This document shows, piece after piece, positions 17,725 to 50,900 of a DNA stretch of 64,000 nucleotides (position 1 is the stretch's first letter; each line of letters begins with the position of its first letter). The stretch is from Ahaetulla prasina (lineage: Eukaryota; Chordata; Lepidosauria; Squamata; Colubridae). The notes beneath the pieces were generated by a model that searched no databases, had not been told where the DNA came from, and saw only the letters and a program-made list of their open reading frames with translations. The DNA lies in NCBI RefSeq assembly GCF_028640845.1, contig NC_080539.1:304578016-304642015 (forward strand), read 5' to 3'. A program made the position numbers and the translations under genes.

Positions 17725-18947
17725 TTAATTTGATTTTGTCACTGCAGTTGCTTTTGTGTTTGTTGATTTAGAAACCTGACAGGGATTAATTACTGACTGT
17801 GCCAATTTCTTCTCTTTTGAAGCAACAGGTGCCAATGCAGGCATCACTTTAGTACTTTGTCCTTCAGAATCTAATGACTGATTAGCAGTTTTTAACCCCA
17901 GTGGTGCCAATTTGGGCATAGGCCTCCATGACATGTCCGATGCGCCAGCTTCTAAATTAGTTTTCATATGAAGAAGAGGAGGTGAAGCACTTCTTTTCTT
18001 TTCTGAGGATTCCATGTTTTTTCCACTTCCGTTTATTTTTAACAGGTTGGAATTTCTATCCTTTACTTCAGAGCCTAGCATGATTTTTAAAGCATCAGAT
18101 TCTGATGAAACCTCTTCGGCATTTCTATTGCCAACAGGAAAATCATCATCATCCAAGTGGAGTAGGAGAGGAGTTATGGAATCACCATTGTCTTGAATCA
18201 TAGAAAGATCCTTAAAATTTCCACCCACTGTACCAAATTGGAAGGCAGAGCTACTTGCTGAGTTTGATTCCTGGCGACTTTCTGTATCTGCCAGAGAAAA
18301 GCTAGAGCTTAGGGGGTGGGAAAGTTCTGGTATGTCTGAAGCATCATCACTCAGATGCTGATTGAGGAATGCAATTTCATTCAGAAGTGAGGTCAGAGTT
18401 TCATCTGTATCATCATTCTCCTCTATATCTACTGAACTGCTCGTATCCATTGTTGGTTCATGAATTACGGAAGCAACTTGCTGCAGTTCCATTTCTGACC
18501 CAGAATCCTTGGCTTTGTTAATCTGTAACTTTTGCAATGAGGGATTATTTGACTTTTGACAATCTTCTCCTCCTCCATCTACCTCTTTGGCCCATGTGTG
18601 GCTTCCAGTTAATTCTTCAAAACAGAGCTTTGTTCCAAATGTTTCTGGGGAATCCTTTAAACTGGAGACGTTTAATATTTGTGGAAAACTGTATTTTTCC
18701 TGAAGCAGATCTTGTGTTGTTCCAGTAACATTTCTCTCTTTTTCAGAACCTTCTTCGTTTTCTTTGCATTTATGATTGGATGTTTCCTGAGATAAAACTT
18801 GCATGGAAAGCTCAGATGCCCTACAATCAGTATTTAACATTGTATAAGGTCCTTTATTTGCATCCAGATTTAAATTTGTTTCTTCTTCAGTAGCTAGTGA
18901 TGTCACGTTCACGATTCTTGGCATCAAGAATGAATCTTCATTTTCTG
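17725..18947 (-). CDS. MGA: MGA terminal coding exon
   Basis: Acceptor GCCCTAG; 407 codons then a stop at 17725-17727. It begins [20 protein letters not shown]. Conserved MGA blocks include [52 protein letters not shown] and [11 protein letters not shown] near the end. The final residues are TKSN. Confidence 0.96.
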
Positions 18948-19646: not shown

Positions 19647-22600
19647 ATGTGTGTGTGTGTATGAATGTGTGTGTGACACAGAGAGAGAAAGAGAGAGAGA
19701 GGGTGGGTGGGCACTTGTAGTTCTTAGGGCTAGCAGGTCCAACCAATGGGTGTTCACAATGGTAGAAACATTCTACAAGCCTTCTATATTTATATGAATT
19801 AACCAATTCAAAGCACGGATCAGAGTGCTATCATGACCCACAGAATGCATGTAACAACTGACTGATGCAGAGAAGCAGTGGTGGGTTTTCTTCTGCCTTA
19901 CTTATTGAAATGCCGAGTTCAGATTTGTGAGGTTATTGGTAATCATGTGGACTACCTGGCCTAAGAGGAACAATTTGAAAAGGAGAAGTGTATTCCAGAG
20001 AATAAAGTCCATGAAGTAATAAAAAAAGTGTATCAAAAGTGCACAGAAAATGACGCAGTTGGTCTCCAAGCTTAGAAGGCCCATGTGATGAAATACCAAA
20101 ATAACACTGGGAAAACAGAAGAGGAAAAAGGACTACTGCAAAAGAGGGATCTCAGCCAAGGGGAAGGAAGAAGGCATGAAATTCACAGCTACTCCATTTT
20201 AATTATGCTAGGTATAAGGTGAATATGACAATTGCTTTGACAGCCTTTCAAGTTTCTATTACATTACCCCATTAGCAAAAAAAAAAAGAGAGATTTCCTG
20301 AGTTTGCTAGTCTCCCAGAGAAAATAAAAATTATAGCGGCAGGTGCACACATTCATTTGGGAATGAAAGAGACCTTTGCCAACAAAAAGGTCTGCAAATC
20401 CTTAGTCCAAACCCAACTCCTGAACTGCAATTATGCATTGCAGCACAGTCTGTCATCATACTTAGCAGGACAGCTAGCAGCGATCAACTGTTTCACAACA
20501 TGGACTGCCTCAGCATGGAAAAGTAATGATCTCTCACTCAATGTCAGAAAAGTAGATCAAGAAGAAGAAAGCTTTTGTCCAAAGAAAATACTGATATTTT
20601 GCTAGGCCAGTTTGAAAATGCTTGTTTCAAAGGGAAAGAGTAAAGTCTTAGCTGTCATTCTTTTTCACAGGAGCCAAATATAAATACTGATAAGCTTTGA
20701 GGTTAATCATATTTAGCCATGTGGATTGAAACACTGACCCTAAGACAGAATGAAGCAAAATATTTTAACACTGGACATACTGAAGGATATTTTTGAACAA
20801 TGGACCAAGAAGTCAATTTTAAGAATGTCTGCCTCTACAGCTAGATTGCATTTAAGCAATGTTATGAAAGAACAAGTCTTACCTGAACAGATTGAAACTG
20901 ATCTGACAGTGGATTTAAAAACAACAGGCTAAAAGAATGATACAGGTAAAGATGCTGCACTGGGCATACAACCCCACTCTCCTCCCCCACCCTCCACAAA
21001 AAAAAAACCAAATCAAAACAAAAACTGGCTAATGCTATTAATGGATATAAAAAGAATAAACCAAAAAAAGAAAGTTGGGTAATTTTCCAATGTTGGACTT
21101 ACAAAAAGAGGTTTATTAAAACTTTGACAAGAGCCGTGGTGTGGTTAGTGTGCAGTACTGCAGTCTACTTCTGCTGACTGCCAGCAATTTGGCAGTTCGA
21201 ATCTCACCAGGCTCAAGGTTGACTCAGCCTTCCATCCTTATGAGATCAGTAAAATGAGGACCCAGATTATTAAGGGCAATATGTAAACTGCTTAGAGATG
21301 GCTGTAAAGCACTGTGAAGCGGTATATAAATCTAAGTGCTATTGCTATTGAAGAATTCTGTGAGAAGGACAAAGAAAGCAAAAAGAAATCAAATTCTAGG
21401 ACTACTGATGGGACTAAAGATCAAGATTGTTAAAAGAAAAAGGAAAAAATATTAAGTTGGTTTATTTGATTAAGATTAAATAAATTTATTGTTATATCTG
21501 GTAACCCTTAATGGAATTTGTCTGGTCAGGATTGAAATGAAAAAAAGCTTAAAGGATTTATTTATAGGTAAGAGTTAGAATATTGTTGTATTTTAAGATG
21601 TGATAAAGTCTAAAATTGTTTATACTTATGATGAAGGGGAAAATAATCTCTTCATATATTTCTTTTATTTTATTGTATCTTTATTTTTTGTCTCTTCTTT
21701 TTTCTTTCTTTCTATTTTTTATCTCTGCATGGAGATTAACTATAGATGAGACAAGTGATAAAAATGTCCACTTTGCTGACATGGACAATTTAGCATGCCA
21801 GAAGCAAGGCTAGGTTCAACTTAATTTTTTTTCCAGTTGTTTTCTCATCTTACCTGACTGCTCTTTCTCATCGTTGCCCTCCATTTCTGATTTGACTTTG
21901 GCTTGTAGAAGTGTGGTAGGCAGGGCAGCAACCTGTCTTGGCACCAATGAGTTTCTGAATGCCAGAACCTGGCCATTTGTAGTTACTAAAAGATTGGCAT
22001 TGGTTAACGTTATAGAAGGAGGTAGGTCTCCTGTAAGAAAGCAATAATAAAGAAATGTTGAGATAGCACATAAATAACAAGGAATATTATTTATCTTGGC
22101 ATTCCTTTTATGTTTATTCCCATAAATCACTACTGTTTTTCTATAACAAATTTCAGAGCACACTGAAAATTTTAAACATCAAAAGCAAAAAAAAAAAAAA
22201 AACACCAAAGAAAACTTTAAAGCAACTTTGCAGTACCACTATAGTATTTCATACATTACAGTGGCTGCTGTGATAATTTATCACCTTACTATGCTGATAA
22301 ATAAATGACAGGCAGTCCTGGTTTATGACAGTAATTGGGACTGGAATTACAATCACTAAGTGACAGTCATAAAGTGTAATGTCCCTTGATTATGCTACCT
22401 AGTTGTTTCTAACATTAAGTGATGACTTCACAGGACTGCTGATTTCCAATTTCCTGCTGGCTTCCCATTGACTTTGCCTGTTCGGCAATGAATGTCAGGA
22501 ATCACGCTCATATGACCATGGGGAGAAATGGTTGTAATTAACACTAATTCAATAACACTGCAAGTTTGAACAGTCACTGAACAAGCAGTCATTAACAAGG

Positions 22601-25600
22601 ATCACCTATATCTTATTTATTTTTTTTAATACCAAGGTTGTAATTGTGTAACATAGCCAAGCATCCTAGACATGAGATGCACTTTATTCAAGAATATCTT
22701 ATGGTTAGAAACTTAATTTTGGGTAGATTAATTATTCCTGTGTTTCTTTAGCCTACCTGTGACATGATTTCCTTTCCTGGAAAGTATCAATGGTTTTGAA
22801 CGTTGATTGGATAACACCACTGGCTTCACCTCTCCAAGGACAGAAGTAGGATCTTTTTTCACCGAAGGACTAGCAGTCTCCGTAGTTTCAATCATCTTCG
22901 TAGGATCTGTTTGTTCTTTCTGCTTCCCTTTTTGAGCCGCTACTGCTTTCTGTTTGGCATAGATGTATTCTAACTTCTTCAAGACCACTTCTTGTGTCTT
23001 TCCTAGAGACGAAAGTAGTAGTCAGGTTTCTCTTTTATAACGAATATACTTACAAAAGTCTAAATTTCCAAGCAAAATTATAAGCTAGCCCAAATGCAAT
23101 TGTTTTTAGTTTTTCTTTCTCCATCATAAACATTATAGCGGCAGGTGCACACATTCATTTGGGAATGAAAGAGACCTTTACCAACAAAAAGGTCTGCAAA
23201 TCCTTAGTCCAAACCCAACTCTTGAACTGCAATTATGCATTGCAGCACAGTCTGTTATCATACTTAGCAGAACAGCTAGCAGCGATCAACTGTTTCACAA
23301 CATGGACTGCCTCAGCATGGAAAAGTAATGATCTCTCACTCAATGTCAGAAAAGTAGATCAAGAAGAAGAAAGCTTTTGTCCAAAGAAAATACTGATATT
23401 TTGCTAGGCCAGTTTGAAAATGCTTGTTTCAAAGGGAAAGAGTAAAGTCTTAGCTGTCATTCTTTTTCACAGGAGCCAAATATAAATACTGATAAGCTTT
23501 GAGGTTAATCATATTTAGCCATGTGGATTGAAACACTGACCCTAAGACAGAATGAAGCAAAATATTTTAACACTGGACATACTGAAGGATATTTTTGAAC
23601 AATGGACCAGGAAGTCAATTTTAAGAATGTCTGCCTCTACAGCTAGATTACATTTAAGTAATGTTATAAAAGAACAAGTCTTACCTGAACAGATTGAAAC
23701 TGATCTGACAGTGGATTTAAAAACAACAGGCTAAAAGAATGATACAGGTAAAGATGCTGCACTGGGCATACAACCCCACTCTCCTCCCCCACCCTCCACA
23801 AAAAAAACCCAAATCAAAACAAAAACTGGCTAATGCTATTAATGGATATAAAAAGAATAAACCAAAAAAAGAAAGTTGGGTAATTTTCCAATGTTGGACT
23901 TACAAAAAGAGGTTTATTAAAACTTTGACAAGAGCCGTGGTGTGGTTAGTGTGCAGTACTGCTGTCTACTTCTGCTGACTGCCAGCAATTTGGCAGTTCG
24001 AATCTCACCAGGCTCAAGGTTGACTCAGCCTTCCATCCTTATGAGATCAGTAAAATGAGGACCCAGATTATTAAGGGCAATATGTAAACTGCTTAGAGAT
24101 GGCTGTAAAGCACTGTGAAGCGGTATATAAATCTAAGTGCTATTGCTATTGAAGAATTCTGTGAGAAGGACAAAGAAAGCAAAAAGAAATCAAATTCTAG
24201 GACTACTGATGGGACTAAAGATCAAGATTGTTAAAAGAAAAAGGGAAAAATATTAAGTTGGTTTATTTGATTAAGATTAAATAAATTTATTGTTATATCT
24301 GGTAACCCTTAATGGAATTTTTCTGGTCAGGATTGAAATGAAAAAAAGCTTAAAGGATTTAATTATAGGTAAGAGTTAGAATATTGTAGTATTTTAAGAT
24401 GTGATAAAGTCTAAAATTGTTTATACTTATGATGAAGGGGAAAATAATCTCTTCATATATTTCTTTTATTTTACTGTATCTTTATTTTTTGTCTCTTCTT
24501 TTTTCTTTCTTTCTATTTTTTATCTCTGCATGGAGATTAACTATAGATGAGACAAGTGATAAAAATTTCCACTTTGCTGACATGGACAATTTAGCATGCC
24601 AGAAGCAAGGCTAGGTTCAACTTAATTTTTTTTCCCAGTTGTTTTCTCATCTTACCTGACTGCTCTTTCTCATCATTGCCCTCCATTTCTGATTTGACTT
24701 TGGCTTGTAGAAGTGTGGTAGGCAGGGCAGCAACCTGTCTTGGCACCAATGAGTTTCTGAATGCCAGAACCTGGCCATTTGTAGTTACTAAAAGATTGGC
24801 ATTGGTTAACGTTATAGAAGGAGGTAGGTCTCCTGTAAGAAAGCAATAATAAAGAAATGTTGAGATAGCACATAAATAACAAGGAATATTATTTATCTTG
24901 GCATTCCTTTTATGTTTATTCCCATAAACCACTACTGTTTTTCTATAACAAATTTCAGAGCACACTGAAAATTTTAAACATCAAAAGCAAAAAAAAAAAA
25001 AACACCAAAGAAAACTTTAAAGCAACTTTGCAGTACCACTATAGTATTTCATACATTACAGTGGCTGCTGTGATAATTTATCACCTTACTATGCTGATAA
25101 ATAAATGACAGGCAGTCCTGGTTTATGACAGTAATTGGGACTGGAATTACAATCACTAAGTGACAGTCATAAAGTGTAATGTCCCTTGATTATGCTACCT
25201 AGTTGTTTCTAACATTAAGTGATGACTTCACAGGACTGCTGATTTCCAATTTCCTGCTGGCTTCCCATTGACTTTGCCTGTTCGGCAATGAATGTCAGGA
25301 ATCACGCTCATATGACCATGGGGAGAAATGGTTGTAATTAACACTAATTCAATACCACTGCAAGTTTGAACAGTCACTGAACAAGCAGTCATTAACAAGG
25401 ATCACCTATATCTTATTTTTTTTTAATACCAAGGTTGTAATTGTGTAACATAGCCAAGCATCCTAGACATGAGATGCACTTTATTCAAGAATATCTTATG
25501 GTTAGAAACTTAATTTTGGGTAGATTAATTATTCCTGTGTTTCTTTAGCCTACCTGTGACATGATTTCCTTTCCTGGAAAGTATCAATGGTTTTGAACGT

Positions 25601-28600
25601 TGATTGGATAACACCACTGGCTTCACCTCTCCAAGGACAGAAGTAGGATCTTTTTTCACCGAAGGACTAGCAGTCTCCGTAGTTTCAATCATCTTCGTAG
25701 GATCTGTTTGTTCTTTCTGCTTCCCTTTTTGAGCCGCTACTGCTTTCTGTTTGGCATAGATGTATTCTAACTTCTTCAAGACCACTTCTTGTGTCTTTCC
25801 TAGAGACGAAAGTAGTAGTCAGGTTTCTCTTTTATAACGAATATACTTACAAAAGTCTAAATTTCCAAGCAAAATTATAAGCTAGCCCAAATGCAATTGT
25901 TTTTAGTTTTTCTTTCTCCATCATAAACATGCACGGGCTCTATATTTTTGCGGCTTCCATAGAGTAAATTATAATTACTAATTAATTTTATTTTTAATCC
26001 TGCCTTTTTATATATAACTCAACAGTGTGAACATACCTACTGTTCCTATCTCCTACTTTCCTCACAGCAACAACCCTGTGAGGTGACCTGGACTGAGAGA
26101 AAGAGTAACTGTCCCAAGCTGACTTTCATACCTAAGGCAGACTCAGAACTCATAGTCTCCTGGTTTCTAGCATCTTAACCAATAAACCAAACTGGCCTCC
26201 AGTTGCACATTACTGCATTATACAGGTAATCCTCATCTTACAACCATTTAATGGTTGCAAACATTCAGTGACCCTTCAAAGTTGTAACGTTGCAAGAATT
26301 GACTTATGACTGTTTTTCACACTTATGACCACTGTAGCATCCCTACAGTCACATGATCAAAATTTGGATGCTTCACAACCGGCATGTATTTAAGACAGTT
26401 GCAGTGTTCCAGTCATGTGATCACTTTTTGTGATCTTCTAATAAGCAAAGTCAGTGGAGAAGCCAGATTCACTTAACAAGAGTGGTAAGAAAAGTCATAA
26501 AATGGGGCAAAATTCAACTAACAACTGCCTTGTTTAGTGACAGAAATGTTAGGCTCAATTGTGCTTGCATATCAAGGACTGCCTGTATGGAAAAAGCATT
26601 TAACTATGTTTTATGGTCCTAGCATGAGTTCATAATTTCTTGAAGGTTTTCTTACTCCCCATCTGTGGCAGCTTCCAGGTTCTATTTTAGGACTATTCAC
26701 ATATTTGACAACTATACTTCAGTTGTAGCACGTAACTTTCTTTGCCCACCACTTCAAAATATTCCAGTGATTCACAATCCTAAGAGACAGTTCAGATTTT
26801 ATTCTGCTCATTCTTTCTGACATCTCACCTGAAAGTGCAGATACTTTACGAACCAAGGTATCCTGCGTGTGCAACAATAAGTTCTTTTGTCCTGTGAGTT
26901 TGTCTGCTTGATCCGTCAAACCCTGGATCTCTTCCAAGGCCTGAAAAACAAACTATTTTTAGATTCCAGCAGAATATAACTGAAGAGAAAGTTCATATCT
27001 TTTATGAAGATGAGTTATATCTCATCTTCATATCAGTAAATTATTTGAAAAAAAATATTGAAAGGAATTAAAATTAAATAAAATATGCTCCAAGGTATAT
27101 GCCTGCACGAAGAAGGGCAATTATACAGGTTTTGTTTTAGCCAAATATACAATGAAGAAACAACCAATCAGTTAAACTTGGACAAAATCTCCAATTTTAG
27201 TTCACGAGTCATATAACAGAATTGGAAGGGAACTTGGAGACCTTCTAATCCAACCCCTATTCAGGCAAGAAACCTATACCATTTTAGTCAAATGGTTGTC
27301 CAATCTCTTTCTAAAAACTTCCAGTGTTGGAGCACCCACAACTTCTGGAGGCAACTCATTCCACTGATCAATTTTTCTGTCAGGAAATTTCTCCTTAGTT
27401 CTAGGTTGGCTCTCTCCTTGATCAGTTTCCATCCATTGATTCTTGTCCTGCCTTCAGGTACTTTGGAGAATAGGTTGACCCCGTCTTCTTTGTGGCAGCC
27501 CCTTAAATATTGAAACTCTGCTATCATGTCATCCTGGTCTTTCTTTTCATTAACCTAGACATTAGGCATTTCAAGATATTTTCAAGGAAGTTTTGGGGGA
27601 AAATCCAGATAACTAAAAAGTATTTTTTTAAAAAAGTAACATTGGAATTAGAAACAGGTATGGCATTGCTTAGGTTCCAATCTCCAATAAGCAATGCTAA
27701 TATCTAGTCAATCTAGACTGATCTCAAAATATTAAATGGAACTGAATCCTAGTTAGTACTTGGATGGCTCTCCAACAAGGAATACCAGTACTGCAAACAA
27801 GATTGGGAAATTTAAAAAAACATATTGGAAGAAGATAATACATTGTTTCCATAAAAGCTAGATATGTCCATAAAATCACTAGGAATAAGCTTATCTTGAA
27901 AATGGCTTGAAATAAACTATTATTTCAGTTGAGTTGGGCAGACAATAAATTTAAGTAAACAAATAAATAAATAAGAAAGAAAGCTTGCATAGTATTAAAT
28001 AAGTCTATTACTAATGTTAAGCAAGATTTTTCATCTCTTCTATATTTAAAATCAATTCTGCCCAGTATTTTTCTTTGATATGAAAATATGAACATAAAAC
28101 ACTAACTTGTTTTAAGATGAAGCATTTGGAAACCTTTGGAAAAGCCTGTAGTCCTAATGTTGCTTTCAATTTTTCAAAGAGTCCCCTCATTTCCTTTCGG
28201 CGTCGACGTTCGTTTGCTGTATGTGTTTGCCGATAGTTAGCAAAGGCCTGCTCCTCATTCTTTAGTTTTTTGTTGAGAAACTCAGATTGCTATGAAAAGA
28301 CAAATCTGCTCTCATGAACAGTTTAAAATACAACACAGTAAAACTGTCATTCTTATAATTAAACAGCACATGGTACAGATGCACTTTGCATCCATCAGGC
28401 TTAAATAATGTGACCCTAATTTATGTTTTTGCGAGATACCAGGATTTACTTCTGGTCTTTGGCTAAAACTTCTCCATAACAAACAATGGGTCTATTTAAC
28501 AACTGCAGTATTTGCTTAACAACTCACCACAAAAAGGGTTTTATAATCTAGAACCATCACCTGCTGATCACTTTACATCCATCATGACTTACAACTGAAA

Positions 28601-31600
28601 TTGCAGGGTCAGTTATAGTCATAAATTAAGGACTACTTTTATTCAGCCTTCCCTCACATTTAGGAAGAAAAAATGCTGATGTCATATTCCCACATGATTA
28701 TCAGCAGAAATATATGCACAGATATTGACAAAACATCATGGAAAGTAACTTAGCATGATACACATTAGTAAACTGCTAGTATCAGTTTATTCTACCTTTA
28801 GAAATCGCTAAGAATAAATTAGTGAATCTTTACAATGAGAATATTCTTTACTAATTAAACCCAGAAGAATGAACAGAACTCTACCTTATGTCGCTTGGTA
28901 GTCTTATTAGAATGGTTACGAACCAAGTGCCTGATAGAGAAAATAAACAAGTTTAGTTCCTGGGTTTTTATTCTGGCATTACCTGAAACTGAAGAATTAA
29001 AATATAAAACATACAATAGAAAATAAACCTTGAAAATATAGTAAGCCCAATCAGTTTAAAAATGCCAAAAGCAGTTTATCCCATCACAAAAATAAGCCTG
29101 AAACAGAAAGAAAGACTGGAAGAAAAGAGGAAAATGAGCATGGCTGAGTTATTCTCTACTGCAGTTATAGTTTTCAGGATCAGCTTTCAGAATTAAGAGC
29201 ACTCTTGTGATGGTTCTGCTCCTAGAATCAGAAAGTGGTGTTGAGTGCCTTCTGTCCTACTCCCTGATAACAAAAGTGTTTCCCTCCTGTTCAGTTTATT
29301 TCCCATGCTTTAGATCAACTACTTTAAAGTGCTAAAACAAGTTATTTGATGTTACAGTGTCATCACTACCCAAATTACACATATTTTTACATCCTTCTTT
29401 CACCTAATAAATAATTCAAAACCTTTAAAAAAACTAGCAAAAGCCTGCCCATTTCAGTTGTGATCAAGTACACATCTCTGATAGAAGAGGTGTGCACTTT
29501 GGTGTTTTTGAATCAATTATTTCGTTGGAGATTAAGAGCATCTTATTTCAGTTTTCAATGTGCTTCTTGCTGTTCATTCTGGACAATAATAGCCTAATAT
29601 CTATTCTTTGGTAATCACCAGGACAAATTATTATATTCCTTTTCAAAAATTTCAGCTAGTCCAAAATAAAAAAATACTTAACTATTAGCTGATACTGGTC
29701 AGTGTAATCAGATGATGCCGGTGATTCAGCAACTGCCCTGGAAAACAATCTGTTTCCAAACTCAGTTTGAAGTGTTGGAGTATAACTTTAAAAGCCCTAA
29801 ATTATTTGGAGGCAAAGTTTCTAAAGTAAATTTTCTCACATATGAAACTACTTAGACTCTCATTTTTAAAAGGCCTCCCCTAAATGCATTCCCCTAAAAT
29901 AATTTAGTTAGGCAGACACTCTCAGTTTGATATCCAGTAAATAGATAGTACTTCCTAAGAAGGCTTTCCTTTTACCATATTATTCTTTGTTTCACCTCCA
30001 GGGGAAAAACATCCTGTATTTTAAGATTTAGATCCAGCTTTGATGTTCTCAAGATTTTTAAATATTTTACATTCTGTTCCCTTCACTTAGTGTTGCCTTT
30101 TGTTTATTCTTATTCTTTTTATGTTATTTGCAGAAATGTTTTTTTTATTCCATGTGGAAATTAAATATACATTTTACCATATGCATTAAATAAGCTTCAA
30201 GCCTTTCTTTTAAACTGAAATGTATCTTTAAAAAAACATGGAAGATTTCCTCCCCTAGTATATTAATGCTCATTCATATAAGTAAAACTGTATTTAGACA
30301 AACAATCACACAACAAAAGCCTGAGAGTTTGCAACTATAAAATTACAAATAAAATTGTTCAATTTGGGTTTTTAAAGGAATATGCTTACAACTGTTTGGA
30401 CAAAAAAGCATGAGCAGCTGTAGCCTTCAAGCGAGCAAGATTAACTTTTTCTGAAAATTCCTCCACAGTCTCAATGTCCACATTCTCCTCAACTTCACTG
30501 GATTCACTTCCATTCTGTGACAAAGTAATGAAACACAATAAATTCTATCAAGAGGTCCCAGTCATGTAAACTATTTAATAACAATTAGTAGAAGAATCTA
30601 CAGTTTAAATAATTAATACAATTCTCAACAAGCCTCTAATGTATATCGAACTGTTATGGCTAAATGTCATTTTTTAAAAATAGCAATATCTACAGTATTA
30701 AAAGCCAAGGTTTGAATAACTGAAGATCTAACAAACAAGAGGCATTCACAGTACCAATATAACTATCATAGGATTTACATTGCTGTATTTTAGTGTTAGG
30801 CAGTCTATCAGAGCACTGGTGGAATAATCACAGCCAAGTGTTTACAATGTTGAAAAAACAATTTCAAAGAAAGAAAAGTGAATGATGGATGTAGACTAAT
30901 GAAGTTCAAAATACTTAAGCTAATTAGAAACAGTAAGTCAGTGAAACAGTTTGATAGTTTTATACTGATTTATTTAGGTTGGATTTCCTATACACTAAAG
31001 CACCCATAAAAGCAATTAAAAATATAACAAAGTTTTAATTCCTCCAGTTTTATGAGATGGGGGGACTGAACTTTACAGGGGCTGTTTCACAGTGGCATTA
31101 ATTATCCTAACTAACATACATCTGTTTGAAATTACACTGGTCCTATGGTACTGGCTTTCCTTCACCTTTCAAAAATTGAATTCTTTTGGAAAGCCCATGG
31201 AGGATGAAATGTCATCAGTTATTACTGTTGTTGCTACTTTTATTTTATTTTAATTACACAATAGATATTTTACTGTATTTACTATAAGAGCCATGGTGGT
31301 GCAGTGGTTAGATTGCAGAATTGCAGGCTAATTCTACTGACTGCCAGAAGTTTGATCCTGACTTGCTCAAGGTTAACTCAGCCTTCTATCCTTCTGAGGT
31401 TGGTAAAATGAGGACCCAGATTGTTGGGGGCAATATGCTGACTCTCTAAACCACTTAGAGAGGACTGTAAAGCGCTATGAAGCGGTGTAAGTGCTATTGC
31501 TATATTACTGATTGCCTTGTATCTACTATTTTTAATGAAAGTTTAGCCTAACTGCCATCCAACTTTCTTTTCGTTTCAGGCATAGCACCTTTCCTTTATT

Positions 31601-44900: not shown

Positions 44901-47900
44901 CCTGTACTCTGTATATATTTAACATATGTACAGAGATATAAAAACAGAGACACGTTTTGTTTTATATATATATATATATATATTTATTTATTTATTTATT
45001 TTTATTTATTTTTTCATATTTATATACCGCCCTATCTCCCTAGGGACTCAGGGCGGTTCACAGGCAAGTAAAAACATATAAATACAGACTAAAATAACAA
45101 TTAAAAAACTTATTCTAATAAGCCAGATTATTAAAAACAATATAAATGATAAAAACCCATTAAAAACCAACAAATTTAAAATCTAATCCAGTCCTGCGCA
45201 GATGAATAAGTGTGTTTTAAGCTCGCGACGGAAGGTTCGGAGGTCCGGAAGTTGACAAAGTCCTGGAGGGAGTTCGTTCCAGAGGGCGGGAGCCCCCACA
45301 GAGAAGGCCCTTCCTCTGGGTGTCGCCAGACGACACTGTCTCGCTGACGGCACCCTGAGGAGTCCCTCTCTGTGAGAGCGCACGGGTCGGTGAGAGGTAT
45401 TCGGTAGCAGTAGGCGGTCCCGTAAGTAGCCCGGCCCTATGCCATGGAGCGCTTTGAAGATGGTCACCAAAACCTTGAAGCGCACCCGGAAGGCCACAGG
45501 TAGCCAGTGCAGTCTGCGCAGGATAGGTGTCACACGGGAGCCACGAGGGGCTCCCTCTATCACCCGCGCAGCTGCATTCTGGACTAACTGAAGCCTCCGG
45601 ATGCCCCTCAAGGGGAGCCCCATGTAGAGAGCATTGCAGTAATCCAGACGAGATGTCACAAGGGCGTGAGTGACTGCGCATAAGGCATCCCGGTCTAGAA
45701 AGGGGCGCAACTGGCGCACCAGGCGAACCTGGTGGAAAGCTCTCCTGGAGACGGCCGTCAAGTGATCTTCAAAAGACAGCCGTTCATCCAGGAGAACGCC
45801 CAAGTTGCGCACCCTCTCCATCGGGGCCAATGACTCGCTCCCAACAGTCAGCCGTGGACTCAGCTGACTGTACCGGGATGCCGGCATCCACAGCCACTCT
45901 GTCTTGGAGGGATTGAGCTTGAGCCTGTTTCTCCCCATCCAGACCCGTACGGCTTCCAAACACCGGGACAGCACTTCAATGGGGTGGCCCGGTGTGGAAA
46001 AGTACAGCTGGGTGTCATCCGCGTACAGCTGGTACCTCACACCGAAACCACTGATGATCTCACCCAGCGGCTTCATATAGATGTTGAACAGAAGGGGCGA
46101 GAGAATCGACCCCTGCGGCACCCCACAAGTGAGGCGCCTCGGGGTCGACCTCTGCCCCCCCGTCAACACCGTCTGCGACCGGTCGGAGAGATAGGAGGAG
46201 AACCACCGATAAACGGTGCCTCTCACTCCCAATCCCTCCAACCGGCGCAGCAGGATACCATGGTCGATGGTATCAAAAGCCGCTGAGAGGTCTAATAGGA
46301 CCAGGGCAGAGGAACAACCCCTATCCCTGGCCCTCCAGAGATCATCCACCAACGCGACCAAAGCCGCCTCAGTGCTGTAACCGGGCCGGAAACCGGACTG
46401 GAACGGGTCTAGATAGACAGTTTCATCCAGGTGCAGGGGAAACTGATATGCCACCATACTCTCTACAACCTTCGCCGCGAAGCGAAGGTTGGAGACCGGA
46501 CGATAATTACCTAAAACAGCGGGTCAGGAAGGCTTCTTGAGGAGGGGCCTCACCACCGCCTCTTTCAAGGCGGCCGGAAAGACTCCCTCCAACAAGGAAG
46601 CGCTCGTAATCGCCTGGAGCCAGCCTCGTGTCACCTCCTGAGTGGCCAGCACCAACCAGGAGGGGCACGGGTCCAGTAAACACGTGGTGGCATTCAATCT
46701 ACCCAACAGCCTGTCCATGTCCTCGGGAGCCACAGGGTCAAACTCATCCCAGACAATATCACCAAGACCGCCCTCAGACGCCCCGTCTGAATCACCGCAA
46801 TTTTGGTCCAGACCGTCCCGAAGCTGAACGATTTTATCGTATAGATAACCGTTAAACTCCTCAGCACGTCCCTGCAACGAGTCATCCCGCTCCCCCTGGT
46901 GAAGGAGGGAACGGGTCACCCGAAACAGGGCGGCTGGGCTGTTATCTGCCGACGCAATGAGGGAGGAGGAGTAGCAACGCCTCGCTTCCCTCAGTGCCAC
47001 TAGGTAGGTCCTAGTATAGGATCTAACTAGTGTCCGATCAGCCTCTGAACGGCTGGACCTCCAGGAACTCTCTAGGCGTCTTGTCCGGCGTATAAAGTTT
47101 TACAAAAAAAATTTACCCATACATCCCCTCGTCCTCCCACCAACCCTCCCCCTTGCCCCTCCCCCCTCCCCCCAATCCCCCCACCCCACCCCCCAGACTT
47201 CCCAGAGCAATATACAGGGTATAATATCTAACAATCATAAGCTAGAATACACAAACTATCCATAGACTCCCATCCATCCCCTAGAACCTTAACTCCCCTT
47301 CTCCATAGTAAAGAAAAAGAAAAAGAAAAAAAGAAAAAAGAAAATATACAGTACGTTCTATTCATTCATAGTCTATTTGGTAGTTCTTAATTCAATATTT
47401 GTTTTAAAAATAGTCGATCCATCTTCTCCTTTCCAATATACATCTTTCTTGTGGATAGTCTTTCTGGTACGCTGAGATTTCTGCCTTCTCCAGTAAGTTC
47501 ACTGCTTTTAGCATCCAGTCTTCAATGATAAGCAAATGTTCTATCTTCCAATATTGCGCGGCCGGTAATCTAGCTACTAATATTAAATTTAAAATCAATT
47601 TAATTTGATTTTAAATTAAATGTTATCTTCTTCTTCAAGATATTTTGTATAATCCACCTAATTTATATATCCACCATATACAATAATACATAGTATCAGC
47701 CCAACCAGATCTCCAACATTTAAATTATAGTTTCAAATACATACACACCAGTATTTAGAATCTAGATATCATCTCTTTTTACAGAATTTTCCTCTTAAAT
47801 TTTTAACTTATATAAATTTAACATTTAGCCCAATTTCCCCTTTTATCATACAGTCCTTAACTAATTCCATTTCTTATTCTATTTTTATCAACACCTTATA

Positions 47901-50900
47901 TAACCCCTAATCAATTTTTATCCAGAATAACTTAGTTTTTAACAAATCCACCATATATAATCAAATAACATTGCATTTAAATTCCAGATCATCTACAAAA
48001 CATTTTATAAAACTTAACTAATTCCATTCCTTATTCTATTTTTATCAACACCTTATATTCCCAAATCAAATAACATTACTAATACTTCTTCAAAATTTAA
48101 ACACATACACAATACTTTTTAAATATATTCAAAAATTTCAGTTATGATTTTACCCTTTCCCATAAAAAGAAACTCTTTTCGCTTGATATTGCTGCTTCTT
48201 TACTCTTTGTTCTTTTTGTTTAATATCTATTCGAATCAATCTTTGCTCATTTAAATCCCCTTTTTCCAGTGTTTCTTCTTCAGCAATTGCCATCCCAACT
48301 TTAAATTGTGTGTGCTTTACTTCCTTCTCCCATTTTTTTCCAATCTCTACTTTACTTCCCATCTTAATTTCTAACAGTGGTGGACTTCCAGCCTTTAATA
48401 CATTAGTATAAAAATCTCTTGCCTTAAAAACTGTGTTAAGACGATATTTTCCTCCTTTATAATTTACTGTTAGTCCAGCTGGAACATCCCATCTATACTG
48501 AATCTGACGATTTCTAGGTTCATCCACCAAGAAAGTAAACTCCTTTCTAGATCTTAACATTTTAGGAGGAATTTCTTTGAACACTAATATCTCTTGTCCT
48601 GATATTTGAATTTTATTTTTATAAGATACTTGTAAAATTTCATTCCGAATCCTCCTAATTGTAAAATAGATAACATCTCTTGGTAACTGTCTCTGTCTGG
48701 CAACCCAGGAATTAACACGATAATTTTTTTCGATTTGAGTTACAAATTCTGCTGGTTGTTCTCCAAATATATGTGCAAAAGCATCTGCAAAAATATCTTT
48801 TAGATTCTCGCGCTTATTTTCTTTGAGACCTCTCTCTCTCAGGGCAAACTCCATCGATCTATATTGCAGCAAAACCAACTCTTCATCTGCCCTGTTCATC
48901 TTTGTCTGGACCTCCTCTATTTTATTTTCCAAATTCACATTAGCTTGATTAATTTCTTCCACTCTTCCATCCAACTGAACCGTGTAATCAAACAATCTTT
49001 GAAATACTGCCACCACATCTTCCCTTATATCCTTATTCCTAGTTTCAATAATGTCTTTTATTTGAGATATTTCCTCTTCAAGCTCCATAAATTTTTGATC
49101 TATAACAGAGGTTTGAAAGTCTAGAGCTTCTTCTAAAAGACCTTTTAAAAATCCTTTCAAATCTTCTTGTAGCTTTTGCATTTGAACTGGCAATATCCCA
49201 ACATCCTTAATAACACCAAGCTTTGTTTGCTTAGAAGCCATTTTTCACTTTAATTTTATACCTTACAACCGTCTCAATAAGTTCAATAAATCTTCAAATC
49301 TTTTCATAAACTCTGTATTTGGGTAAGGTAAATCAATTCTATAGTCCTTCCACTTTTCACTTTAAAATCTCTTCATGTAAATGTAAAATCCGGCAAGTTT
49401 AAAGAAGACTGAGAGCGCAATAATGTTAACAAAGACTTCCTTAAGTTTCACTTTCACACCCTTTTAAATGCAGGCACCATTTCCTTTGTTCTTCTTAAAT
49501 GTAGTCTGGGAACCGAGTTAAGGTCTGGTACTTGCCATTGCCAACACTCCTGTCATTGCTCTGTCTGCTTTAATCAAATTAAATCTTCATCTTGAAGCAG
49601 AGGTGGTCGTGGTGTTTTGTTCTGCTTAACAGCAGAAATGTCCCGGATCCGGAGCACTGTTGGGCTTTTCAGGGAGCTCTCACCCTTCTAGCCCCAGAAT
49701 TATTCCTGGGACTTTTTGGGGAGCTCTACCTCCGCCCAACTGCTCACCTTTCCCTCTTCTCCCAAGGGAAAGGTTTCCGAGCCGCCAGACAGCTGATTTT
49801 CGCTGTCTGAACGGCTCTACACGATCGCGGAGCTGGCGGTCTGAAAAGACCATCTTCAACACCTACGGTGCCACCAGAAGTCTTGTTATATGGCACTATA
49901 TGGTGTGGCCTGAGGTGTTTTGGTATGGTATGTTTTTGCTGTGCAGTTGGCCGTTAGGTTGGAAAGTTTTGAAAGTGCGGTGGATTGTGAATCTGAGAGG
50001 ATAGGATGGATCGTTCATGAAAGGGGGACTGAGAGAAGGGACTGAAAGTTCAGAAAGATGAGTATTTGAGAGATGGAATCAGAGCAGAAATTAAGTGGGA
50101 GGCTGCCTGTGGATTGGAGAGTTGGTTTTGTGCCCAACCCCCTCTAACTCCCAAGGGATTGAAACAATACAGGTAGTCCTCAACTTGCAACACAATTGAG
50201 CCCAGAATTTATGTTGCTAAATGAGAAATTTATTAAGTGGGTTTTGCCCCATTTTATGACTTTTCTTGACACTTTTGTTAAATGAATCACTGTAGTTGTT
50301 AAATTAGGAACTCAGTTGTTAAGGAATCTGGCTTCCCCGTTGATTTTGCTTGTCAGAAAGTCACAAAAGGCATCCTATAACCCCAGGACACTGCAACCGT
50401 CATAAATATAAACTAGTTGTCAAGCATCCGAATGTAAATTATATGACCATGCAGATGCTGCAATGGTCATAAGTGTAAAAAACGGTCATAAGTCACTTTT
50501 TTCAGTGCCATTGTAACTTCAAACAGTCATTAAATAAGCTGTTGTAAATTGAGGATTATCTGTATCAGGATCACGCAGTTAGAAAGGGCTGGAGTCTGGG
50601 AGCAGATGTTGCTTAACGATAGTGAGATTCAATTAACCAGGACAGCTTTATGAATACACTGCTTAACGATGGAAATGCCAGTCCCAATTGCCATCACAAG
50701 TCAAGGACTATTTAATAATCTATTAAGCAATCTTCAGAATTGCAAGAGGTCTCCTATGCAATTCCTTGCAATGATTAACATTATATATTTAAACTTTAAT
50801 TCATATTTGTGACTTTTATTTCTGAACTACACAGAGAACAATCCAGAGTGATGCAGGAATGTTATATAAAGAAAAACGAATTATTCACCATTGAGGGTCT

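Follow-up and report, generated by a model that had tools for sequence, protein, structure and literature searches.

Head-to-tail duplication of two MGA exons, predicted to be spliced in frame, in an Asian vine snake genome assembly

MGA, a chromatin repressor of the MYC network, is encoded on the minus strand of the window analyzed here, a 64,000-nucleotide stretch (C1:304578016-304642015) of a 1.77-Gb genome assembly for Ahaetulla prasina, the Asian vine snake. The present study reveals, by a direct-repeat scan and alignment, that a 2.80-kb segment of MGA is doubled head to tail in this assembly. Taken as a whole, the evidence leans toward a duplicated segment whose two coding exons, A and B, are predicted to be spliced in frame in the order A-B-A-B, which would repeat 141 residues of the post-zipper helix and linker. 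The duplicated units are placed in the window as follows.

20331..23132: duplication unit 1, the downstream copy in gene order, carrying exons A and B (from the alignment)
23133..25930: duplication unit 2, the upstream copy in gene order, carrying exons A′ and B′ (from the alignment)
23132..23133: novel junction between the two units

Between the two units there are 19 substitutions (0.68%), of which 12 are transitions and 7 are transversions, together with 7 indel bases in 4 events; their match is far above chance. Thus, the alignment bears out the initial annotation, which had described a segment of about 2.8 kb present twice, head to tail, at about 99% identity. The entire 5.6-kb doubled stretch has a single matching place in the 1.77-Gb assembly. 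The 42 other matches are confined to the part of the query holding a dispersed repeat; 40 of the 6104 first-look candidates of this search were scored, and the repeat counts are lower bounds. There is no N base across the 264 kb of contiguous sequence around MGA, and both units are free of gaps. The assembly therefore holds adjacent head-to-tail copies of exons with their flanking introns and, judged from its sequence, the case is an ordinary tandem exon duplication (internal gene duplication), a well-known kind.

The exons concerned can be assigned to MGA. The window's exons have as their top match an Ahaetulla prasina MGA protein from NCBI, with 100% identity within the aligned portion. Pfam places T-box, MGA_dom (PF16059), and HLH domains in the MGA protein listed for this contig and an HLH domain in the window's exons, so the earlier assignment to a snake MGA holds. 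The listed NCBI model, P0001 (isoform X2, 3164 aa), was the one compared and represents a cluster with 10 member sequences; proteins named "isoform X" are presumably RefSeq models. The exons from the micro-exon to the stop, in gene order, are these.

28885..28930, minus strand: micro-exon of 46 nt before the bHLH exon, placed by locating the P0001 sequence in the window
28107..28289, minus strand: MGA bHLH exon
26829..26940, minus strand: leucine-zipper exon with a phase-1 donor, aligning to the MYC bHLHZ (bHLH-leucine zipper) chain 1nkp_A
25554..25799, minus strand: exon A′ (246 bp) of the upstream copy, coding for the zipper-helix extension and linker
24656..24832, minus strand: exon B′ (177 bp), upstream copy
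22757..23002, minus strand: exon A (246 bp) of the downstream copy, with the same sequence as A′
21854..22030, minus strand: exon B (177 bp), downstream copy, with a single silent difference from B′
17725..18947, minus strand: last MGA coding exon with the stop and a NAGNAG-type acceptor, of which P0001 uses the inner one

AG/GT is kept at the exon edges from the zipper exon on, and the splice-site sequences are equal in both copies. The sole difference between B and B′ is a silent asparagine codon change (AAT/AAC). In the order zipper-A-B-A-B-last, every join from the zipper exon on is in phase 1, and the frame is kept by symmetric exons. From the bHLH exon to the stop, the doubled order gives 788 codons including the stop, against 647 with one pair, and has a single terminal stop; the gain from read-through is 141 residues. 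The earlier account of two coding exons per copy (246 and 177 bp) with intact splice sites, and of a phase-1 read-through of 141 extra residues with no stop, agrees with this 788-codon frame. Either A-B pair alone is also in frame. The introns between A′, B′, A, and B measure 721, 1653, and 726 nt, and the 1653-nt intron from B′ to A is a new chimeric one.

Since exons 30390-30514 and 28107-28289 are out of phase with each other, a frame broken before the bHLH exon was considered and rejected, as the 46-nt micro-exon mends the join. Its presence in P0001 restores the frame, and thus MGA is not truncated before the bHLH exon. The micro-exon at 28885-28930 (minus strand) is easily overlooked, and the MGA frame requires it. 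At the other end of this region, the last exon begins with a NAGNAG-like tandem acceptor at 18944-18947 (minus strand), and models from different snakes differ in the acceptor used, with or without one extra residue.

How the additional residues would bear on the protein can be considered from exon A. This exon starts directly past the stretch aligned to 1nkp_A, an alignment that stops where the zipper exon ends, and the heptad runs on into it with V, Y, and A at d positions. Single-sequence AlphaFold2 modeling of exon A alone gave one helix at residues 2-26, with a pLDDT (predicted local distance difference test score) of 92-96 in the first 20 residues; elsewhere in the exon almost no secondary structure was modeled, and block means were 54-76. 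A solved structure covering the helix extension was not found, 1nkp_A being the only hit at E ≤0.001, and the repeated part has no Pfam domain at E 0.001. In A-B-A-B, the first copy of the helix directly continues the zipper, and the second begins 141 residues later, with about 116 residues between them. The initial annotation had proposed that the repeat extends the zipper helix and the linker. For the first copy, the heptad and the predicted helix agree with this proposal; the second copy is detached from the zipper and, lying about 116 residues past the first, cannot simply extend it.

The DNA-binding and zipper region of MGA would remain unchanged. For the same reason of spacing, the earlier suggestion of an altered MAX-dimer geometry finds no support, and a change of that geometry by the second helix copy is unlikely. 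A change in PRC1.6 binding had also been proposed. The MGA interaction study PMC8266391 placed the PRC1.6 contact via L3MBTL2 in the DUF4801 region and reported that the bHLHZ binds MAX; an MGA fragment around the bHLHZ was also assayed there by mass spectrometry. With the L3MBTL2 contact placed in that region (PMC8266391), the proposed change in PRC1.6 binding finds no support. A small effect on both MAX pairing and PRC1.6 is the likely outcome, as the extra piece lengthens a linker and its exon-A part is modeled as mostly unstructured beyond the helix. Variation of the linker between the models of related species, described below, points the same way. We give little weight to the idea that a longer MGA (A-B-A-B) works beside the ancestral A-B form, the two lengths being set by splicing and the detached second copy of helix and linker adjusting MAX or PRC1.6 partners in a way particular to this lineage.

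The ends of the duplicated segment suggest how it may have arisen. The breakpoints share a short motif.

20324..20331: left breakpoint motif, 8 bp, matching the right breakpoint at 7 of 8 positions
25923..25930: right breakpoint motif, 8 bp

A 7-of-8 match occurred in 0.40% of 200,000 random breakpoint pairs, a measure picked after the MGA case had been seen. Furthermore, two more head-to-tail pairs, also gap-free, lie within the same 264 kb of C1.

L018:6389-9276: duplication left of the window, unit of 1438 bp, 98.6% identical, with 11-bp perfect breakpoint microhomology
L021:2649-4201: duplication right of the window, unit of 771 bp, 99.6% identical, with 7-bp perfect breakpoint microhomology

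Among random pairs, perfect microhomology of these lengths has a frequency of 0.0025% (11 bp) and 0.076% (7 bp). A 60-kb sample of C2 held no near-identical head-to-tail pair. The count of three comes from the repeat listing of the joined 264-kb stretch, in which 5 of the 20 rows were flagged as head-to-tail. Two of these five, with offsets of 327 and 640, derive from one array of 86-90% identity at 239868-241190 in the joined stretch; they were left out, as were near-identical pairs in the same listing that are not adjacent. Such non-adjacent pairs lie to the left of the window in L013-L014 and L015-L016 (45672-53434 and 67206-76720 of the joined stretch), and the three of them that measure 1.4-2.35 kb have identities of 96.6-98.3% and offsets of 3.4-6.0 kb.

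Microhomology common to all three head-to-tail pairs favors a mutational process over misjoins. Since the two neighbors also have microhomologous breakpoints, the MGA duplication appears to belong to a set of local events and not to be peculiar to MGA. A microhomology-mediated tandem duplication is likely to have doubled the 2.80-kb segment. We infer a single, recent origin in this lineage, which at an assumed neutral rate would date to the order of 1-3 million years ago.

The differences between the copies say little about selection. Without constraint, about 2.4 amino-acid changes would be expected between them; none was found, and the probability of none is 0.09. Selection on the extra copy was therefore examined and set aside, as this probability and the ratio of coding to noncoding differences (Fisher P 0.34) are uninformative. 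One silent difference without any amino-acid change is within what a young duplicate may carry under neutrality, so the open frames are no proof of use. Along the units, the differences are spread unevenly, with 10, 8, and 1 in successive thirds (Kolmogorov-Smirnov P 0.016; chi-square P 0.03), and the exon-A side is nearly identical. Partial gene conversion on that side is possible and compatible with such a pattern, the sites being too few to claim it. The first 8 differences are all transitions, and 7 of these 8 have G or C in the left unit versus A or T in the right.

Whether the doubling belongs to the animal or to its assembly needs to be weighed. The gap-free units and the microhomologous breakpoints suggest that the duplication is probably real, and we hold it considerably more credible than not that the animal truly carries it. 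The assembly was built from about 80x Nanopore data by NextDenovo correction, wtdbg2 assembly, and NextPolish polishing; it totals 1.77 Gb and has 18 chromosome scaffolds, of which the largest measures 377.63 Mb (PMC9999515). Several observations weigh against the duplication or against its use. P0001, the listed model for this very contig, runs zipper-A-B-last and has the pair once. If its annotation drew on existing RNA, which comes from three organs of the sequenced animal (heart, lung, and kidney) and from the skin of 30 snakes (PMC9999515), the B′-A junction may have gone unseen there. Three near-identical pairs per 264 kb is a high density for a Nanopore/wtdbg2 assembly, and systematic false duplication could explain it. 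Several of the 19 differences, judged by eye, lie in or beside homopolymers, as Nanopore residue would. At MGA itself, the perfect flush microhomology is only 2 bp, and at least 2 bp is seen in 17% of random pairs. Finally, a silent-only coding difference is no evidence of selection.

Several of these observations would fit a false duplication. In that case the assembler placed two alleles, or a single allele in two error-laden versions, one after the other, and each chromosome of the animal carries a single A-B. Such an error is a serious though less likely alternative: the listed model with a single A-B, the three head-to-tail pairs within 264 kb, and the assembly of Nanopore data with wtdbg2 (PMC9999515) are all in its favor, and vertebrate assemblies are known to contain false exon duplications (PMC9516828). 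A gap between the copies, a mark of false heterotype duplication, is absent here, there being no N in the 264 kb. Nevertheless, such duplications are said to show a gap "most often," so a false one may also be gap-free (PMC9516828). All three pairs have microhomology at their breakpoints, which is imperfect at MGA but perfect in its two neighbors and would be unexpected for misjoins. The amount of divergence can be read in both directions. From the 12,562,549 single-nucleotide polymorphisms published for 60 snakes (PMC9999515), we computed a Watterson theta of 0.13%, a lower bound because the polymorphism count is quality-filtered, and the units diverge by 0.68%. At this theta, about 3.7 allelic differences are expected in the unit length, and the 19 found are about five times more (P of at least 19, 0.011). 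At a theta of 0.26-0.5%, the same probability rises to 0.09-0.27, values that would leave room for an allelic origin of the two units.

If the duplication is real, the fate of the doubled pair would lie with splicing. The extra pair may normally be skipped, the zipper exon being joined mostly to one A-B pair and the protein left unchanged. This outcome seems improbable to us, even though it would account for the listed NCBI isoform with A-B once, and wild-type products arose through skipping in all the ATP7A duplication patients examined (PMC3240829). In the same report, the largest ATP7A product held both copies, joined at normal splice sites, in 9 of the 9 patients sequenced (PMC3240829). 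In the snake, A equals A′, a single silent base is all that separates B from B′, and the splice sites are equal, which likewise speaks against skipping. A regulated choice of one A-B pair or the other, as mutually exclusive exons yielding two isoforms, is the most remote of the outcomes considered. Tandem exon duplications have been linked to such a choice (PMC9013439), and each pair alone is in frame. However, both pairs encode identical residues, so the choice would give the same protein, and the 1653-nt intron between them is far from the steric interference that needs less than 50 bp between donor and branch point (PMC5740500). In-frame A-B-A-B splicing of a real duplication, giving MGA with the 141-residue repeat, stays our preferred reading. 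By analogy with the human ATP7A exon-pair duplications, the mRNA may well be a mix of A-B-A-B and skipped A-B products; such a mix is what we would predict, and an annotation with a single pair is compatible with it.

Related species were compared through the best 120 of 1495 protein matches, none of these 120 being from a mammal. Among these listed models, exon A was matched once in 120 of 120; exon B was matched once in 118, with no match in the other 2. The models lacking B are P0008 (Liasis), where the absence is clean, and P0009 (Pseudonaja), which reads into intron-like sequence and is perhaps a poor model. The single A-B of the relatives is weaker evidence of absence than it seems, because the model of the vine snake contig itself omits one copy. 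An extra segment of about 50 residues stands between B and the last exon in 18 of the 22 models from squamates other than snakes (P0010-P0031) and in 0 of the 9 snake models. A tblastn search of the window for a relic of this lizard segment found nothing convincing (best E 0.72, in the wrong place). It is this segment, together with the B-less model, that makes the linker variable between models.

Elsewhere in the window, two long open frames (45183-46523 and 48150-49244, minus strand) lie inside an MGA intron. They resemble LINE reverse-transcriptase and ORF1-like proteins.

Should it prove real and expressed, the duplication would be a recent doubling, with the frame kept, of two exons in a chromatin repressor that belongs to the MYC network. 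Such a case would offer a natural test of the linker length that MGA tolerates and a clean case of how the spliceosome handles fresh, near-identical exon pairs. A practical lesson is that three near-identical head-to-tail duplications lie in 264 kb around MGA and that the listed NCBI protein model lacks MGA's extra exons. Among the papers listed by searches of an open-access library, outside which most subscription papers lie, none was an account of an MGA exon duplication in Ahaetulla, and its absence from print is not implied.

As an internal gene duplication, the snake MGA is one more case of the same intragenic doubling of exon and intron, and nothing essential differs. Such duplications arise at a rate of 0.001-0.013 per gene per million years (Gao and Lynch 2009, as cited in PMC7605655), and many of them per genome are therefore to be expected. 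A close likeness is dmrt1 of Solea senegalensis, also a conserved transcription-factor gene in which two neighboring exons are doubled head to tail in one species (I-II-III-II′-III′-IV-V; PMC7605655). There, more than 10 kb is duplicated, the DNA-binding DM domain is touched, and the tandemly duplicated exons II-III are present in complementary DNA (PMC7605655), whereas the snake MGA duplication spans 2.8 kb, lies outside the bHLH domain, and is seen in assembly DNA. The human ATP7A duplications of Menkes disease are likewise head to tail, comprise at least 2 exons, and have copies that use normal splice sites; in contrast to the in-frame snake MGA, none of the 11 examined there keeps the frame, and they cause disease (PMC3240829). 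Within MGA itself, the germ-cell variant of mouse Mga (exon 19a) is another exon gain that alters the bHLHZ-bearing part of the protein (PMC8102552). The mouse variant brings a premature stop and yields a dominant-negative MGA without the bHLHZ (PMC8102552), whereas in the snake the frame is open and the bHLHZ is kept.

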